Origin: Actinomycetota bacterium
GTDB taxonomy: Bacteria; Actinomycetota; Actinomycetes; Actinomycetales; Actinomycetaceae
DNA: 59,924 nucleotides
Direction: 5' to 3'
Assembly (NCBI GenBank): GCA_009930425.1
Contig: RZYE01000002.1
Location: 1 to 59,924, forward strand
Positions 37,996-47,348 of this stretch are shown here, in pieces. The position numbers were made by a program, and so were the translations under genes. Numbering within the stretch: position 1 is the stretch's first letter; every line of letters starts with the position of its first letter. The notes under the pieces are model-generated. The model did no database searches and had not been told where the DNA came from. It was given only the letters and a program-made list of their open reading frames with translations.

Positions 37996-38896
37996 GCTTC
38001 CCGAGGTGGAGACGATCCGCCTGGGCCTCGAGCGACACGTGCTCGGCAAGCGGGTGGAGGAGGTGGTCATCCACTCGGCGCGAGCGGTCCGCAAGCTGGC
38101 CGATCCCGCGGCGCTCGAGGACGACTTCTCGGGCCGACGGATCGAGGAGGTGGCCCGGCGGGGCAAGTTCCTCTGGTTCGCGCTGGGTGGGGCGCCCACC
38201 GCGTTCGTCGTCCACCTGGGCATGTCCGGCCAGCTCCTCGTGCACGACACGGCTCCGCGTGAACTGCCGCGGCACACCGCGGTGACGGTCGTGCTCGACG
38301 GCGGTGCCATCCTCTTCGTCGACCAGCGCACCTTCGGGTACGTCCACTCCTCCCCGCTCGTGGAGACCCCGGACGGCCTGCCCGCCGGCACCGGTACCCG
38401 CCTGTCCGCGCTGCCGGCGCTCGCCTCCCACATCGCGCGCGACCCGCTCGACCCTCACCTCGACCTCGACGCCGTCGTGGCGCGGATGGGCCGCACCTCC
38501 AGTGCGATCAAGCGCGTCCTCCTCGACCAGCGGTACGTCTCCGGGATCGGCAACATCTACGCCGACGAGACGCTCTGGCACGCCCGGGTCCACCCTGCGA
38601 CGTCGGCGAACCAGCTGTCGCCCGAGGACCTCGGGCGCGTGGTCCGCACCGCCGCGGAGGTCATGGGCGCCGCGGTGCGGCTGGGTGGCACGAGCTTCGA
38701 CGCGATGTACGTGAACGCGGAGGGCCAGTCCGGCTACTTCGCGCGCGAACTGCGGGCCTACGGGCGCACCGGGGGGCCCTGTGCCCGGTGTTCCACGCCG
38801 CTCATCCGCCAGGTGCTGGGCGGACGGTCCACCCATCTCTGCCCGCGGTGCCAGATTTCGGAACAGCGCGCGCAGTGGATAGGCTCTGGACCGTGA
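37988..38896 (+). CDS. mutM: Formamidopyrimidine-DNA glycosylase
   Basis: [72 protein letters not shown]. Confidence 0.96.
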
Positions 38897-39546
38897 GCAC
38901 CCCTGACGAGAAGACTCGCGAGATCCGCGTGATGATCGTGGACGACCACGAGATCGTCCGCCGCGGGATTGCCGAGATCGTTGACCGGTCCGACGGCCTC
39001 GTCGTCGTCGCCGAGGCGGGCAGCGTGGCGGAGGCGCTGCGTCGCGCCGAACTCGTGCGGCCCGAGGTCGTCCTCATCGACCTCCAGCTCCCGGATGGCA
39101 CGGGGATCGACATCATCACTGCGCTCCGCGGCTCGCTGCCGCAGACACATCCCGTCGTCCTCACCTCGTTCGACGACGACGACGCCCTCTCCGAAGCCCT
39201 GCGGGCGGGCGCCAAGGCGTTCCTGCTGAAGACGGTGCGCGGGGCGGAGATCGCCGACGTGATCAAGGCGGTGGCGTCGGGCCGCACCCTGCTCGACGAC
39301 CGCACGGTGACCCGCCGCCGTGCCGACCACGCGGACCCGACCGCCCACCTGACGCCGTCCGAGCGGCGCGTGTTGGAACTGATCGGGGACGGGCTGTCCA
39401 ACAGGGAGATCGGCGACCGTCTCGGAGTGGCGGAGAAGACGGTGAAGAACCACATCACGTCCCTGCTCGCCAAGATGGGCCTCCAGCGGCGCACCCAGGC
39501 CGCCGCGTGGGTGGCAGGCCAGAGGGCTTCCTCCTGGCGCCAGTGA
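38893..39546 (+). CDS. DevR/DosR-like NarL-family response regulator
   Basis: VMIVDDHEIVRRGIAEIVDRSDGLVVVAEAGSVAEAL..LPDGTGIDI; HTH GDGLSNREIGDRLGVAEKTVKNHITSLLAKMGLQRRTQAA. GTG start. Confidence 0.93.
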   Translation: MSTPDEKTREIRVMIVDDHEIVRRGIAEIVDRSDGLVVVAEAGSVAEALRRAELVRPEVVLIDLQLPDGTGIDIITALRGSLPQTHPVVLTSFDDDDALSEALRAGAKAFLLKTVRGAEIADVIKAVASGRTLLDDRTVTRRRADHADPTAHLTPSERRVLELIGDGLSNREIGDRLGVAEKTVKNHITSLLAKMGLQRRTQAAAWVAGQRASSWRQ

Positions 39547-39563: not shown

Positions 39564-41210
39564 TCAGGCGAGCGGCACCTGCCACTCCAGCCGGCTGCCG
39601 TGCCCCCGCCCGGGAGTGTCCACGCTGAACGTCCCCCGGTGGCGCCGCGCCCTCACCGCGAGGTTCGCGAGCCCGGAGCGGCGGGTCCGGCCCGGGTCCA
39701 CGCCGATCCCGTCGTCCTCCACGACCACCGTCACGTCGCCGTCCGGGCCCTCCCCGCGGACGTCGACCCTGACCTGCACGCTGGACGAGTGGGCGTGGCG
39801 TGCGGCATTCGACAGTCCCTCCCGGACCACGGCGACGACGTCGTCCGCGATGTCCGGGTCGACCCGAGCATCGACCTGGTCGACGAGGGGGTCGTCGGTG
39901 TCGCTGCCCACGGCGTGGTCGTCCACGCGGATGATGAGCGACGGGGCGAAGCCGAGCGCCGTCCGACCGATCGAGGCCTCCCGGCGGAGCCGTTCGACGA
40001 GGTAGACCGCCTCGTCCGGTTCGCGCAGCGAATGGACGATGGCCCTGATCTGGCGTACGGACTCATCGACGGAGGTCAACGAGCGCTCCAGGATCGAGGC
40101 GAGGTCCGCGTGCCCCTCCTCCAGCAGTCGGGAACGGGCCCCGTGCAGCTGCATGCCGGTGGCGAAGAGCTGCTGGATGGCGAGGTCGTGCAGGTCGCGC
40201 CCGATGCGCTGCCGCTCGGCGAGCAGGGCCGCAACGTCCTCGGCGTGGCGGGCCGCCGCGAGCTCGAGTCCGAGTGCCGCCTGCTTCGCCAGCCCCTCCG
40301 CCATGGTCAGGTCGGAGGACTCGAACTCCGGCCTGCCCTCCTTCCGGAGGAGGAGGATCACGCCGAGGCCCGTCCCGCGGACCATCATCGGCGCGTACAT
40401 GGCGGGCCCGAAGGGGCGCAATTGGGGCACGCGCATCGGGTTGGCCTGTGCGAGCGAGTCGACGATGACGCCGACTCCCTCCCGCAGCACCGTCAGGGCG
40501 CGGCCCGCGGGGGGGAACTCGACGCCGATCAGGGCGGGGGCGAGCTCGCCATCCGCGATCTCGCAGGCCCAGGTCTCGCCGATCGAGGGCAGCACGATGA
40601 GGCAGGTGTCGGCGTCCGCCACCTCCCGCACCTCGTGCGCGATCATCTGGAGGGCCTCCTCCTCGTCGGTGCCCTCCAGCAGCATCGTGGTGATCCGCTG
40701 GCTCACCGCCAGCCAGCGCTCACGGGCCCGGGACTCGCCGTAGATCCGGGAGTTCGCGATCGCGACGCCCGCTGCCTTGGCCAGCAGTCCCACCTCGGTG
40801 ACGTCAGCCTCCCCGAAGCCGCCCTCCTTGTCGGCGAGGTAGATCCGCCCGAACACCTGCTCGTTGATGCGCAGCGGCATGCCGAGGAAGGTCCCCATCG
40901 GTGGGTGGCCCTCGGGCCACCCACCGAAGCTGGGGTGGGCGGTCACGTCGTCGAGCACGAGGGCGCCCTCCGGCGGGATCTCGCCGAGCACGCCCGTGCC
41001 GCGTGGCGGGTGGCCCAGGATGCGTTCCGTCTCCGCGCTGACGCCGTGGTGGACGAATACGACCGTCCTGCCGAGGTGGTCCAGTACTCCGAGTGCGGCG
41101 TAGCGCGCCCCCGTGAGCTCCGCGGCGGCATCGACGAAGTCCTTCAGGACGTCCGGCAGGTCCAACTGGCTCGTGAGCTCGAGCGCGACGCCCAGCAACC
41201 GTTCGTTCAT
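39564..41210 (-). CDS. DevS/DosT-like two-GAF sensor histidine kinase (HisKA_3)
   Basis: GAF1 LTGARYAALGVLD...GHPPMGTFLGMPLRINEQVFGRIYLADK; RIGRDLHDLAIQQLFATGMQLHG; HATPase VVREGLSNAARHAHSS. ATG overlaps cydC stop (ATGA). Confidence 0.92.
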   Translation of the reverse strand: MNERLLGVALELTSQLDLPDVLKDFVDAAAELTGARYAALGVLDHLGRTVVFVHHGVSAETERILGHPPRGTGVLGEIPPEGALVLDDVTAHPSFGGWPEGHPPMGTFLGMPLRINEQVFGRIYLADKEGGFGEADVTEVGLLAKAAGVAIANSRIYGESRARERWLAVSQRITTMLLEGTDEEEALQMIAHEVREVADADTCLIVLPSIGETWACEIADGELAPALIGVEFPPAGRALTVLREGVGVIVDSLAQANPMRVPQLRPFGPAMYAPMMVRGTGLGVILLLRKEGRPEFESSDLTMAEGLAKQAALGLELAAARHAEDVAALLAERQRIGRDLHDLAIQQLFATGMQLHGARSRLLEEGHADLASILERSLTSVDESVRQIRAIVHSLREPDEAVYLVERLRREASIGRTALGFAPSLIIRVDDHAVGSDTDDPLVDQVDARVDPDIADDVVAVVREGLSNAARHAHSSSVQVRVDVRGEGPDGDVTVVVEDDGIGVDPGRTRRSGLANLAVRARRHRGTFSVDTPGRGHGSRLEWQVPLA

Positions 41211-42967
41211 CCGACTCCCTCGCTCGCTGCGCCCGCGTAGGCGGCGTTCCGCCGCGACAGCTCGTCGTGCGTCCCACGATCGCACACCGTCGCGGGTTCT
41301 GCGCCCCCGAGCATCACGACCTCGTCCGCGGCTCCCAGGGCGGCGAGGTGGTGGGTGACCACGAGCACCCCACGACCCGGCTCCCGGCGGGGCAGGTCCA
41401 TGAGGTCGGACATGATCGCATCCGCGGTCGCGCTGTCGAGGTGTTCGGCCGGCTCGTCGATGAGGAGGAGCGGGGCGGGGGAGGCCAGCGCGCGTGCGAG
41501 GAGGATCCGGCGACGTTCCCCGCCGGAGACGGTGGCGCCGTCCGCTCCGAGGAGGGTGTCCATTCCGTCGGGGAGGCCCGCGAGCCAGTCCCCGAGTCCG
41601 CACCGCCCGAGGAGATCCCGGCCCTCCTCCGGGGTGAGGTCGCCTCGTGCGACCCGGAGGTTCTCCAGGAGCGTGGTGGCGAAGATGTGCGCGTCCTCCG
41701 CCGTCATGGTGACGTGGCGCGTGACGGACGGGCGGGTGGCGCGAGCGACGTCGATCCCGTCGAGGTCCACGGAACCGCCCCGAGCGGGAAGCAGGCCCGC
41801 GAGTGTGGCCAACAGGGTGGTCTTGCCGGCGCCGGACGGACCGACGATGGCGATCGCGCGCCCGGGCGTCACGGCCAGGTCGACCCCAGTGACGACGACG
41901 GGTCCGCCCGGCCACCCGACGTCGAGGGCGCGGGCGGTCAGCACAGGTGAGGCGGAGGCGGGCACCTCCTCCGTCCGTTGGTCGACCCGCTCGGCGTCGT
42001 CGAGGAGCGCCATGACGCGCTCGGCGGCGCCCGCCGAGCGGACGAGCTGGACCGCGGCGGCGCCGAGCGGCGCCGTCGCCTCGAACGCGGCGAGCGGTGT
42101 CAGCACGACGACGGCCAGCTCCACGGGCGCGAGCGTCCCGGAGACGAGCGCGGGGATCCCGACGAGGATCGCGCCGAGCACGGCGAGTGCCATTGCGGCG
42201 ACGTCCAGGCCGGCGGCGAGGGCCGCGGGCCGTGCCGCCCGGTCCTGCAGCCGTTCCAGCCGGTCCTCCGTGGCCGCGAGTTCGGTGCGGATTGCGCCGA
42301 GGCGGCCCGAGACCGTGAGCTCGGCCCCGCCGTCCACCATCGTGAGGGCGGTGGCGGAGAGGGTGGCGCGTTCCTCCAGCTGTGCGAGCTCGCTCGCGCG
42401 GGCGGCCCACGCGTTGAGGAGCGGTCCCGCCGTGGCTGCCACGAGGAGGCAGGCGAGCAGGATGAGGCCGGAGGCGGGGGAGAGCCACGAGACGAGCGCC
42501 ACCGTGCCGGTGCCCACGACGAGGGCGACCCCGGCGGGGAGCAGTGCGCGGACCACGACGTCGCCGATGGCATCCACGTCGGCGCCGGTGCGAACGAGCA
42601 GGTCCCCACGTCGCAGGCCGGCCACGGTCTCGGCGGGGGAGTCGGCGAGGCGGAGGTACACCTGCTCGCGGAGGGCGGCCATGCCGCCGAGGGCGACGCC
42701 GTGCGAGACCAGCCTCTCGGCGTAGCGGAGCACGGAGCGCGAGATCCCGAAGGTCCGTACGCCCACGGCCGCCACGGTGAGGTCGAGGACGTGCGGCATC
42801 TGGGACGCCCGCGCGATGAGCCACGCCGACGTCGCCGTGAGGGCCACCGACGAACCCAGCCCGAGTGCGCCGGTCACGATCGCGAGCCAGACCCTCGACC
42901 AGGTGAGGTCCAGCAGCCGCAGTGCGCGGCGCAGCGCCACGCGCTGGCTCCGGCTGAGCAGGATCAC
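41207..42967 (-). CDS. cydC: Thiol reductant ABC exporter subunit CydC
   Basis: TATSAWLIARASQMPHVLDLTVAAVGVRTFGISRSVLRYAERLVSHG; IVGPSGAGKTTLLATLAG. GTG overlaps cydD stop. Confidence 0.93.
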   Translation of the reverse strand: MILLSRSQRVALRRALRLLDLTWSRVWLAIVTGALGLGSSVALTATSAWLIARASQMPHVLDLTVAAVGVRTFGISRSVLRYAERLVSHGVALGGMAALREQVYLRLADSPAETVAGLRRGDLLVRTGADVDAIGDVVVRALLPAGVALVVGTGTVALVSWLSPASGLILLACLLVAATAGPLLNAWAARASELAQLEERATLSATALTMVDGGAELTVSGRLGAIRTELAATEDRLERLQDRAARPAALAAGLDVAAMALAVLGAILVGIPALVSGTLAPVELAVVVLTPLAAFEATAPLGAAAVQLVRSAGAAERVMALLDDAERVDQRTEEVPASASPVLTARALDVGWPGGPVVVTGVDLAVTPGRAIAIVGPSGAGKTTLLATLAGLLPARGGSVDLDGIDVARATRPSVTRHVTMTAEDAHIFATTLLENLRVARGDLTPEEGRDLLGRCGLGDWLAGLPDGMDTLLGADGATVSGGERRRILLARALASPAPLLLIDEPAEHLDSATADAIMSDLMDLPRREPGRGVLVVTHHLAALGAADEVVMLGGAEPATVCDRGTHDELSRRNAAYAGAASEGVG

Positions 42968-44616
42968 GGGACCGCGACCTCCTGCGCGCGCACGGTGACC
43001 ACCCGCGTCGCCGCCTCGATCACGCTGGGGCGGTGGGCGATCACGATGACGGTCCTGCCCTGGGCGTGGAGCTCCCGCACCGTGGCGACGACGGTGGCCT
43101 CGGTCGCGGCGTCGAGGTGTGCCGTGGGCTCGTCGAGCAGGACGACGGGCGCGTGGGACACGAGGGCGCGCGTGAGGGCGAGTCGTTGCCGCTGCCCCAC
43201 GCTCAGGCCCACGCCACCGTGGCCGACGCGGGTCTCCCACCCGTCCGGCAGGGCGGCGACGTCGAACCCGGCGAGCGTCGCGGCGCGCTCCACCGCCGGG
43301 GTGATCGTGGGGGCGACGTTCTCGGCGACCGTTCCGGGCAGGATGGCCGGGCGTTGTGGCACCCACGCGACCTGCCGGTGGAGCGAGGTCGGCTCGACGT
43401 CCACGAGGTCGATCTCGACCCCGGCATGGTGGAGGACGATCCGGCCCTCATCCGGTTGGAGGAGGCCGAGCAGCAGGAGCGCCGTCGTCGACTTCCCGGC
43501 ACCCGTCTCGCCGACGAGTACCGTGATCTCGCCGGGATCGATCCGCGCGTCGAGGTGGGCGGGGGCGAGCACGGCGCGGCCGGGGGCCCGCACCCCGACG
43601 TCCCGCAACTCGAGGACCGTGCTGGACAGGGGCGGGGCCGGGGCCGTGCCACGATCGCGGACGGGCAGGTCGATGACGTCGAAGGCGGCGGTGGCGGCGG
43701 CGAGGCCGTTCGCGCTGGCGTGGAAGTGGGCTGCCACCTGTCGCAGCGGCTGCAGCACCTCGGGGGCCAGCATGATGGCGGCGAGGCCGGTCGTGAGATC
43801 GAGCTGGCCGTTGACGAGCCGCATCCCGACGACCACCGCGACGAGGGCCACCGAGATGCTGGCGATGAACTCGAGGATGGCGCCGGAGAGGAAGGCGATG
43901 CGCAACGCCCCGAGCGTGGTCGCGTTGTAGGCGTCCGCGAGGACCCGGACCCGGGCGCCGGGGCCGCGCTCCCGGCCGAGCGCCTTCAGCGTGGCCAGGC
44001 CCGCCAGCAGGTCCAGCACCTGGCCGCCGAGGCGCTCCATCATGGCGAGCCGCCTCTCCGTGTGGGTCTCCGTGAGCCGCCCCACGAGCCACATGAACAC
44101 CGGGATGAGGGGGAGAGCGAACAGGAGGATGAAGCCGGACGTGAGGTCGATGGAGAAGACCACCACGAGGACGGTGGGGGAGAGGATGGCCGCGAGCAGC
44201 AATTGGGGCAGGTAGCGCACGAAGTAGGGTCCAAGGTCGTCCAGGCCGCGCGTCGCGAGGGTCACGACCTCGGCGGACCGGGTCGCGTCGAGCCAGCGCG
44301 GGCCCTGGGAGACGGCGCTGTCGAGCACCTTCTCCCGCAGTTCGGCGACCACCCGGGTGGCGGCGCGGTGGGCGAGGCTCTCCTGGACGACGAGCACGAG
44401 GACCCGTGCCACGAGCACCGCGGCGAGGGCGAGCACGATGGGGACGACGTCCGGAAGGCTGGCGCGCCCCTCGATGACGGGCGCGATGGCGTGGGCGATC
44501 AGGAGGACCTGGGCCACGACCAGCGCCGTCGTCAGCACTCCCGTGGCCGTTGTCGCGACGATGTAGGCCCGTGCCGCCGACGCGTGCGCGAGGAGGCGGC
44601 GGTCGAGCGGCTTCAT
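42964..44616 (-). CDS. cydD: Thiol reductant ABC exporter subunit CydD
   Basis: MKPLDRRLLAHASAARAYIVATTATGVLTTALVVAQVLLIAHAIAPV; VGETGAGKSTTALLLLGLL; LSVGQRQRLALTRAL. Confidence 0.94.
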   Translation of the reverse strand: MKPLDRRLLAHASAARAYIVATTATGVLTTALVVAQVLLIAHAIAPVIEGRASLPDVVPIVLALAAVLVARVLVLVVQESLAHRAATRVVAELREKVLDSAVSQGPRWLDATRSAEVVTLATRGLDDLGPYFVRYLPQLLLAAILSPTVLVVVFSIDLTSGFILLFALPLIPVFMWLVGRLTETHTERRLAMMERLGGQVLDLLAGLATLKALGRERGPGARVRVLADAYNATTLGALRIAFLSGAILEFIASISVALVAVVVGMRLVNGQLDLTTGLAAIMLAPEVLQPLRQVAAHFHASANGLAAATAAFDVIDLPVRDRGTAPAPPLSSTVLELRDVGVRAPGRAVLAPAHLDARIDPGEITVLVGETGAGKSTTALLLLGLLQPDEGRIVLHHAGVEIDLVDVEPTSLHRQVAWVPQRPAILPGTVAENVAPTITPAVERAATLAGFDVAALPDGWETRVGHGGVGLSVGQRQRLALTRALVSHAPVVLLDEPTAHLDAATEATVVATVRELHAQGRTVIVIAHRPSVIEAATRVVTVRAQEVAVP

Positions 44617-44692: not shown

Positions 44693-45784
44693 TCACCGCA
44701 GCTCGGACAACGTGAGGCCGGCGGGATCGGTGGGGATCTGCCGCGTCGAGAGCCGACGGCGGAAGACCCAGTAGGTGTACGCCTGGTAGGCGATGACGAC
44801 CGGCACGATGGTGAGGGCGACGATCGTCATGACCCGGAGTGTGTACGGGGTGGAGGACGCCTGGACGATGGACAGCGAGTAGGCGTCGTCGATCCGCGAC
44901 GGCATCACGTACGGGTGGAGCGCCATGAAGATCCACGCGACGGCGGCCGCGATGGCCACGGAGTTCAACAGGAAGGACCACCCTTCCTTGCGCTGGCGCG
45001 TGGTGGAGACGACCGCCACCAGGCACAGGGCTGCGACCACCAGGGGGATCAGCGCGAGGGCGCTGCGAGCGTGGGCGAACTGCCCCCAGAGCGCGAACAC
45101 GGCCGTGACGGCGGCGCTGACGATCGAGAGCCGGGCCGCGAGGTCGCCCGCGCGGCGCCGCAGCTCACCGTCCGTCTTGAGCGCGAGGAAGATGGCACCC
45201 GAGGTGAGGAACAACGAGGCCGTCACCACTCCCCCGAGGAGCGTGAAGGGGGTGAGCAGCGAGAAGAAGCCACCCGTGAGCTGGTGGGAGGCAGTGCCCA
45301 GCGCGCCCTCGACGGCCTCCGGGGGGACGACGGTGCCGTCACGCTCGACGACCTCGATGTCCATCCCCTGGACGAGGTTGGCGAACGCGACGCCCCAGAG
45401 CACGGCGGGAACCCAGGCGCTGAACACGTGGATGGTGTCCCAGCGGTTGCGCCAGGCGAGGTCGGAGACCTTGGGCCGCCACTCGAGGGCGGAGATCCGG
45501 AGGATCAGCATGACGAGGATCAGGAAGAGGGGGATGTACATCCCGGAGAACATCGTGGCGTACCACTCCGGGAAGGCGGCGAAGGTCGCGCCGCCCGCGG
45601 TGAGCAGCCACACCTCGTTGCCGTCCCAGTGGGGGCCGATGGTGTTGAGCGCCACGCGGCGCTCCTGCTCGTCCCTCGGGAGGTACTTCAGCAGCATGCC
45701 GACCCCGAAGTCGAAGCCCTCGAGGACGAGGTACCCGATCCACAGGATCGCGATGAGGATGAACCAGAGCGTTGACAGTTCCAT
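44693..45784 (-). CDS. cydB: Cytochrome bd ubiquinol/menaquinol oxidase subunit II
   Basis: LWFILIAILWIGYLVLEGFDFGVGMLLKYL; RRVALNTIGPHWDGNEVWLLTAGGATFAAFPEWYA. Confidence 0.97.
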   Translation of the reverse strand: MELSTLWFILIAILWIGYLVLEGFDFGVGMLLKYLPRDEQERRVALNTIGPHWDGNEVWLLTAGGATFAAFPEWYATMFSGMYIPLFLILVMLILRISALEWRPKVSDLAWRNRWDTIHVFSAWVPAVLWGVAFANLVQGMDIEVVERDGTVVPPEAVEGALGTASHQLTGGFFSLLTPFTLLGGVVTASLFLTSGAIFLALKTDGELRRRAGDLAARLSIVSAAVTAVFALWGQFAHARSALALIPLVVAALCLVAVVSTTRQRKEGWSFLLNSVAIAAAVAWIFMALHPYVMPSRIDDAYSLSIVQASSTPYTLRVMTIVALTIVPVVIAYQAYTYWVFRRRLSTRQIPTDPAGLTLSELR

Positions 45785-45796
45785 GGCCTTACCCGA

Positions 45797-47269
45797 TCAG
45801 TAGACGAACGACATGGGGAGCTCGGACCCGGTGGCGGCGGGCGGCATCTTGTTGGTCTTCGCGTCCACTCCCTCACGGGTGTAGCGCGCCATGAGCAGGT
45901 ACCAGACCACGCCGAGGGCGCCGTACAGCAGGGTGAACCCGACCATCGAGGCCAGCACCGTGCCGGCCGACGGCATCGTGGAGACGCCGTCCTGGGTCAG
46001 CATGTACACGAAGTCGACCGGGTTGGCGGGGTTGGGGTGGACCACCCACGGCTGGCGTCCCATCTCGGTGAAGATCCAGCCGAAGGAGTTGGCGAGGAAG
46101 GGGGCGGGGATGGCGATCAGGCCGAGCGTCGCGAGCCACTTCTGGCCGAGGACCCTCTCCTTGCGCATGTACCACAGCAGGGCGAGGGCGAGGGCAGCGG
46201 AGAACCCGGCGAAGCCGATCATGAGCCGGAACGACCAGTAGGTCACCATCAGGTTGGGGACGTACTCGACATCCGTGCCGAACTGGTCGGCGTACAGCTG
46301 GGTCTTCTCCTCCTGCAGGTCGAGGACACCGGGCAACTCGGCGGTGAAGGTGTTGGTGGCGAGGAAGGAGGTGAGCCCCGGAACCTCGAGGAGGGGGGTG
46401 GTGTCCCCGCAGTAGTTCGAACCGAGGCGCCCGATGGTGAGGATCGAGAATGGCGCGCCGGTGGTGGTCTCGCACAGCGCCTCGGCGGAGGCCATCTTCA
46501 TCGGCTGCTGCTCGAACATGAGCTGCGCCTGGTGGTGGCCGGTGCCGCCGACGGCGAGCCCGGAGACCGCGATCGTGACCAGGCCGAAGATGAGGGCCGG
46601 CCGCCACACCTTCTCGGCGTGCGCACGCTCGCCCCTGTTGACCGCGCGCACCATCCACCAGATCGCGATTCCGGTCACGAAGGTCCCGGCGGTCAGGAAG
46701 GCCGCCGTGACGACGTGCATGAAGGCCGAGACCGCGGTGGGGTTGGAGATCAGGGCCCAGAAGCTCACGAGCTCGGCGCGCCCGGACTCGGGGTTGAACT
46801 CGGCACCCACCGGGTGCTGCATGAACGAGTTGGCCACGAGGATCCAGTACGCCGAGAGGTTCACCCCGATCGCCGCGAGCCAGATCGCCGTGAGGTGGAG
46901 ACCCTTGGGAAGGCGGTTCCAGCCGAAGATCCACAGGCCGAGGAACACCGACTCGAGGAAGAAGGCCGCGAGGGCCTCGATCGCGAGCGGTGCGCCGAAG
47001 ACGTCCCCGACCATCCGGGAGTACTCCGACCAGTTCATGCCGAACTGGAACTCCTGGACGATGCCGGTGGCGACCCCCAGGGCGAAGTTGATGATCAGCA
47101 ACTTGCCGAAGAACTTGGTCAGCTTGAGCCAGTGCTCCTTGCCCGTGCGGTACCAGAAGGTCTGCATCAGGGCCACGAGCGGCGTCAGGCCGATCGTCAG
47201 GGGTACGAGGATGAAGTGGTAGACGGTGGTGATCCCGAATTGCCACCGCGCGAGTTCCAGTGCGTCCAC
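45797..47269 (-). CDS. cydA: Cytochrome bd ubiquinol/menaquinol oxidase subunit I
   Basis: LARWQFGITTVYHFILVPLTIGL; GVATGIVQEFQFGMNWSEYSRMVGDVFGAPLAIEALAAFFLES; GWIFTEMGRQPWVV. GTG start with SD GGAAGG. Confidence 0.97.
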   Translation of the reverse strand: MDALELARWQFGITTVYHFILVPLTIGLTPLVALMQTFWYRTGKEHWLKLTKFFGKLLIINFALGVATGIVQEFQFGMNWSEYSRMVGDVFGAPLAIEALAAFFLESVFLGLWIFGWNRLPKGLHLTAIWLAAIGVNLSAYWILVANSFMQHPVGAEFNPESGRAELVSFWALISNPTAVSAFMHVVTAAFLTAGTFVTGIAIWWMVRAVNRGERAHAEKVWRPALIFGLVTIAVSGLAVGGTGHHQAQLMFEQQPMKMASAEALCETTTGAPFSILTIGRLGSNYCGDTTPLLEVPGLTSFLATNTFTAELPGVLDLQEEKTQLYADQFGTDVEYVPNLMVTYWSFRLMIGFAGFSAALALALLWYMRKERVLGQKWLATLGLIAIPAPFLANSFGWIFTEMGRQPWVVHPNPANPVDFVYMLTQDGVSTMPSAGTVLASMVGFTLLYGALGVVWYLLMARYTREGVDAKTNKMPPAATGSELPMSFVY

Positions 47270-47304
47270 TGAAGGCCTTCCGCGTTGAAGGAGTTGTCAT
47301 TCCA

Positions 47305-47348
47305 ACGCTATTCGCGGAGCCGTGGAAGTCGCGGGACCATTGTCCCGC
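47305..47348 (-). promoter_or_regulatory. cydA promoter region with DosR/DevR-box-like palindrome
   Basis: Palindrome GCGGGAC-CATT-GTCCCGC 47331-47348; TAGCGT -10 at 47310-47305 on the minus strand; centre about 41 nt upstream of predicted TSS. Confidence 0.65.

Follow-up and report, generated by a model that had tools for sequence, protein, structure and literature searches.

A conserved palindrome upstream of the cytochrome bd operon of an actinomycete is the predicted binding site of a neighbouring DevR-like regulator

A palindrome upstream of the cytochrome bd genes of this member of the Actinomycetaceae is very probably bound by an oxygen-sensing switch encoded nearby, a relative of the tuberculosis dormancy regulator. 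Comparison of sequences makes it likely, in our assessment, that the DevR-like regulator encoded next to the operon binds this box to activate cydABDC and the kinase gene at low oxygen, together with a probable block of ctaC. The window, meaning the whole stretch of 59,924 nucleotides that was analysed, is one contig (C27) of a 2.94-Mb genome in 689 contigs. It carries the following features:

47331 to 47348, no strand assigned: palindromic box, proposed DevR-type binding site (sequence, chance expectation of 0.01, conservation upstream of cydA orthologues)
47305 to 47310, minus strand: predicted cydA −10 element TAGCGT (same-spaced TAnnnT in 24 of 29 orthologous promoters)
45797 to 47269, minus strand: cydA, cytochrome bd oxidase subunit I, GTG start (PF01654, E=3.3e-155)
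44693 to 45784, minus strand: cydB, cytochrome bd oxidase subunit II (PF02322, TIGR00203)
42964 to 44616, minus strand: cydD, thiol reductant ABC exporter subunit (TIGR02857 above cut-off)
41207 to 42967, minus strand: cydC, thiol reductant ABC exporter subunit, start inferred at 42967 (TIGR02868 above cut-off)
39564 to 41210, minus strand: DevS/DosT-like histidine kinase, last gene of the operon (Pfam: GAF, GAF, HisKA_3, HATPase_c)
38893 to 39546, plus strand: DevR/DosR-like response regulator (PF00072 receiver, PF00196 LuxR-type helix-turn-helix; nearest solved structure 3c3w)

The palindrome GCGGGAC-CATT-GTCCCGC is located 70 nt before cydA and was found as the earlier note had described it. 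A degenerate form of the box, SGGGACNWWNGTCCCS, has one match in the window, compared to 0.01 expected from dinucleotide shuffles. The core of the mycobacterial DosR box, SGGGAC-N-WW-N-GTCCCS, is matched exactly at 47332 to 47347. The full mycobacterial 20-mer, TTSGGGACTWWAGTCCCSAA, has no match in the window within 3 mismatches, and the cydA box is therefore classed as a DevR-type box and not as a mycobacterial DosR box. This agrees with the earlier observation that the core is kept and that the outer bases differ.

The genes cydA, cydB, cydD, cydC and the kinase gene follow one another in this order. Gaps between them are at most about 75 nt, with no space for a further promoter region, and the ATG of the kinase gene at 41210 overlaps the end of cydC at 41207. 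The regulator and kinase genes converge, so the former lies outside the cyd operon. Its product combines a receiver domain with a LuxR/GerE-type helix-turn-helix, and DevR of Mycobacterium tuberculosis is its closest relative among the solved NarL-family proteins (3c3w, E=5.7e-52), followed by VraR (3.6e-37). The recognition helix segment AEKTVKN is identical in both proteins, and the phospho-acceptor aspartate in IDLQLPDG aligns with that in LDVRLPDG of DevR. In the kinase, two GAF domains precede HisKA_3 and HATPase_c, and the first GAF domain is closest to those of M. tuberculosis DevS and DosT. Alignment with DosS and DosT places His102 of the kinase at the proximal His149, Tyr124 at the distal Tyr171 and Gly41 at the Glu87 position; DosT likewise has Gly there, and DosS has Glu87. 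The roles of the haem ligand His149, of the distal Tyr171 and of the Glu87 position have been described (PMC4082495). Conservation of these haem residues suggests that the kinase has a gas ligand. Both the DevS-like kinase as last gene of the operon and the DevR-like regulator with an intact AEKTVKN, as claimed before, are thus confirmed by the domain content and the alignments.

We examined genomes of the same family and of the wider class. CydA was found in all 61 sampled family genomes; at a threshold of E<=1e-30, 59 of them have the regulator and 60 the kinase, for the most part no more than several kb away from cydA according to the listed positions. All of the 16 nearest family genomes have the box upstream of cydA, matching at 11 or 12 of 12 positions. 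Among the named genomes it also occurs upstream of cydA in Cellulomonas, Occultella, Demequina (11/12), Dermabacter (11/12), Brachybacterium, Longimycelium, Prauserella, Virgisporangium, Lentzea and Saccharothrix. The recurrence at orthologous cydA genes that retain the two-component system, on which the earlier reading depended, therefore holds for the nearest genomes and for other families, but not for many distant low-GC family members, which keep the two-component genes and show no clear box near cydA. As judged from these genomes, the predicted cyd-box wiring is restricted to certain lineages.

Two observations at other cydA genes are recorded here. At six low-GC loci that lack the GGGAC box (L033, L034, L043, L074, L084 and L104), GTGAC-N6-GTCAC-like palindromes lie about 90 to 117 nt before cydA; possibly they are bound by a different regulator or are DevR-type boxes that have drifted. 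The related genome G007 has a second cydA-like copy (C1:2813379-2814805, L107), which is in pieces, with two in-frame TGA codons, and has the same perfect box upstream.

The occurrence of the box is associated with that of the kinase-regulator pair. Of the 16 named loci with the pair downstream of cyd, 13 have a box of at least 11/12, compared to 5 of 30 loci without it (Fisher p=3e-5, for loci with enough flank, counted by hand and uncorrected for relatedness). The link was also seen from the side of the regulator. We used 40 DevR-like genes, which were the best class-wide regulator matches outside the family, ranked by E-value with boxes ignored. Their flanks (104.6 kb) contain 7 exact sites and 14 sites with one mismatch, whereas the control gave 0 and 0. 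Most of these sites lie 50 to 270 nt upstream of the regulator gene, and all 40 proteins carry [AS]EKT[VI]KN. This enrichment ties the motif to DevR-type regulators, a tie that probably arises through autoregulation.

The box might instead be occupied by a different NarL-family or palindrome-binding protein, such as one of the HrrA/ChrA type, while the DevR-like pair controls something else. Such genomes encode many other response regulators, with 38 first-look candidates in the genome studied here, and HrrA controls both oxidases in corynebacteria (PMC7337898). However, the box shares its core with DosR sites, and unselected DevR-like genes have the motif in their flanks. The kinase-regulator pair goes together with cyd and the box, and no response regulator of this genome other than the adjacent one is a match at E<=1e-30. 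We regard binding by such a different regulator as unlikely.

The promoter geometry is consistent with activation by the neighbouring DevR-like regulator. The minus-strand TAGCGT (47310 to 47305) starts 29 nt from the box centre and predicts a transcription start near 47298, which puts the box centre at about −41.5. No match to a −35 consensus was found at the cydA promoter. A sigma-70 promoter with both elements was rejected there, as no −35/−10 pair of this type was detected. When 29 cydA promoters were aligned on the box centre, TAnnnT started at an offset of 29 nt in 15 promoters, 30 nt in 5 and 31 nt in 4, that is in 24 of 29. Between the box and the start codon there are 64 to 132 nt, with a variable spacer sequence. 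The conserved spacing makes TAGCGT more credible as a −10 element than a single match would be, and its constancy places the box near −41.5. The earlier proposal of this −10 element, of a start near 47298 and of a palindrome about 41 nt upstream is strengthened by these orthologues. With the predicted −10 element, cydA has the layout of a class-II activated promoter, in which the site is at about −41.5 and the −35 consensus is absent. A box that replaces the −35 element at a fixed distance of −41.5 would be typical of activation. In M. tuberculosis promoters the start-proximal DevR site overlaps the −35 element (PMC3029386), and the position of the cydA box agrees with this. On the other hand, several mycobacterial promoters have two or more cooperating DevR sites (PMC3029386), whereas only a single box was seen at cydA, which counts against the assignment to DevR.

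A scan of 16 genomes with GGGACNWWNGTCCC gave 89 occurrences, compared to 2 for the reversed control, and only six of the examined sites were located inside genes as called by a simple gene caller. Recurring genes near the sites, identified from 90-residue N-terminal pieces, are ctaC, nrdD (anaerobic ribonucleotide reductase), the formate C-acetyltransferase gene pflB, the arginine deiminase gene arcA, and genes for the menaquinone reductase MenJ, NuoA (nuo), a flavodoxin and a flavohaemoprotein. Hsp20-like and dihydrolipoamide dehydrogenase-like genes near sites were recognised by eye only. The scan reveals what is predicted to be a small respiratory and anaerobic regulon of low-oxygen type. 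The earlier note had suggested a genome scan for boxes near −41; the sites were indeed found near low-oxygen genes, but the −41.5 activator spacing was looked for and not seen at nrdD, arcA and flavodoxin. Activator spacing was rejected for these three, at which the regulator could act in either direction. Further exact boxes in the genome studied here lie upstream of small lipoprotein-like (L011:228), GMC-oxidoreductase-like (L013:136) and small membrane-protein-like (L007:2947) genes; similar genes carry boxes in genome G014, with identities assigned by eye only. At L163, upstream of nrdD, the palindrome ACACAAGATCTTGTGT is located downstream of the DevR-type box and resembles an NrdR box.

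The same regulator could bind the box but mainly repress cydA at high oxygen, or the system could sense redox state, NO or haem supply. Mycobacterial sensor kinases respond to NO and CO as well (PMC4082495). However, the box stands in place of the −35 element, which is typical of activation, and the DevR sites of M. tuberculosis overlap that element in the same way. The haem residues of the kinase argue for a gas ligand, and the genes near the sites are of low-oxygen type. It seems quite unlikely that repression or a different signal is the main function.

In addition to activation of cydA, the DevR-like regulator may act on the competing oxidase. A box of at least 10/12 was found upstream of ctaC, which encodes aa3 oxidase subunit II, in 15 of the 17 genomes that have this gene. 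The exceptions are G035 and G013; the latter has no close DevR orthologue, yet carries two 11/12 sites at cydA. In nearly all of the 15 genomes a TAnnnT ends 13 to 19 nt before the box centre, and the distance from the box to the start codon is 55 to 224 nt. The ctaC box of the genome studied here (L006:3568-3581, contig C110) is located just downstream of the −10 element. Such a box would overlie the first bases of the transcript, where repressors typically sit, and its position suggests repression. No convincing ctaC box was observed in 18 wider-class genomes with boxes elsewhere, and the aa3 arm is thus limited to this family as sampled. The previous interpretation of the cydA box is supported, but it was incomplete, as the ctaC half of the circuit was absent from it. 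From the two positions we infer a switch in which bd would be turned on and aa3 turned off.

An inverted repeat that arose by chance, or one that works as an RNA hairpin, is an extremely unlikely reading of the palindrome. As RNA the cydA copy would fold well into a 7-bp hairpin, but it lies upstream of the predicted transcription start; the ctaC copy folds no better than shuffles (z 0.65, within chance), and no T-run follows the palindrome. The chance expectation is 0.01 and the conservation is strong.

Taken as a DevR-type site, the box would act as follows. At low oxygen, or with NO or CO, the haem-GAF kinase would phosphorylate the DevR-like regulator. A dimer of the regulator would then bind the box at about −41.5 and recruit RNA polymerase to a promoter that has only a −10 element. 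This would turn on cydABDC and the kinase gene and thereby create positive feedback. The same regulator would probably block the ctaC promoter, where the box is just past the −10 element, so that cytochrome bd takes over from aa3; in addition, the regulator would help to control a small group of low-oxygen genes. Computation establishes the box, its conservation and spacing, the regulon and the homology of the proteins; the phosphorelay, the signal, the binding and the sign of regulation are what we infer from the comparisons. A hypoxia/redox two-component switch that directly drives cydABDC, as first proposed, gains support as a predicted DevR-type activator site from conservation, spacing, regulon and the tie between motif and DevR. 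We lean slightly towards a wider version, in which one oxygen-sensing DevS-DevR pair encoded in the bd locus exchanges the oxidases by box position alone. A box at about −41.5 would serve to activate cydABDC and the kinase gene, and one at about +8 to +13 to repress ctaC. In this family, the type of regulator known from mycobacterial dormancy would then be a master of the aerobic-anaerobic shift comparable to FNR or ArcA.

Rex controls streptomycete cyd. Rex of Streptomyces controls aerobic metabolism when respiration is limited (PMC5355995), and Crp1 of M. smegmatis controls cyd under the same limitation (PMC7739888). Crp1 and Rex are unrelated to the regulator described here, and they follow redox state or respiratory function instead of a gas at haem. 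HrrSA of Corynebacterium glutamicum is a two-component system that likewise sets the balance between aa3 and bd, but it is haem-responsive, activates both the aa3 and the cydAB genes and delays bd via sigC repression; opposed box positions are not described in the sections of PMC7337898 considered here. OsdK/OsdR of Streptomyces coelicolor includes a non-mycobacterial DevR orthologue with a 16-nt palindromic site (PMC5069765). Its consensus, AGGGCCGATCGGCCCT, differs from the box described here, and the text of that paper does not mention cyd or cytochrome (PMC5069765).

There is also a close resemblance to DosS-DosT/DosR (DevS/DevR) of M. tuberculosis and M. smegmatis, which share the type of haem-GAF kinase, the NarL-family regulator with the same recognition helix, the GGGAC-N4-GTCCC core and the start-proximal site overlapping −35. 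In contrast to those systems, the kinase and regulator genes belong to or adjoin the cyd operon, the box has different outer bases, and a further box is placed at an aa3 oxidase gene as it would be for a repressor. Moreover, cydA of M. smegmatis is induced without DevR (PMC7739888), which counts against the generality of the wiring. Within the open-access literature, including that on Actinomyces and Cellulomonas, we found no report of a DosR/DevR system wired to cydA or ctaC in this way. To that extent, the type of regulator is known and the predicted wiring is new, namely the target set and the opposed geometry at the two oxidases.

While bd of M. smegmatis is reported to be DevR-independent, the same type of sensor appears here to be wired directly to bd. 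In Actinomycetaceae it appears to be wired to the rival aa3 oxidase as well, with the geometry reversed. This is a specific prediction that is testable in cultured bacteria, and the motif offers a means of mapping oxygen regulons in many actinobacteria. If the prediction is true, different actinobacteria would have used one box-and-regulator pair for two purposes, as a switch to dormancy and as a switch between oxidases.
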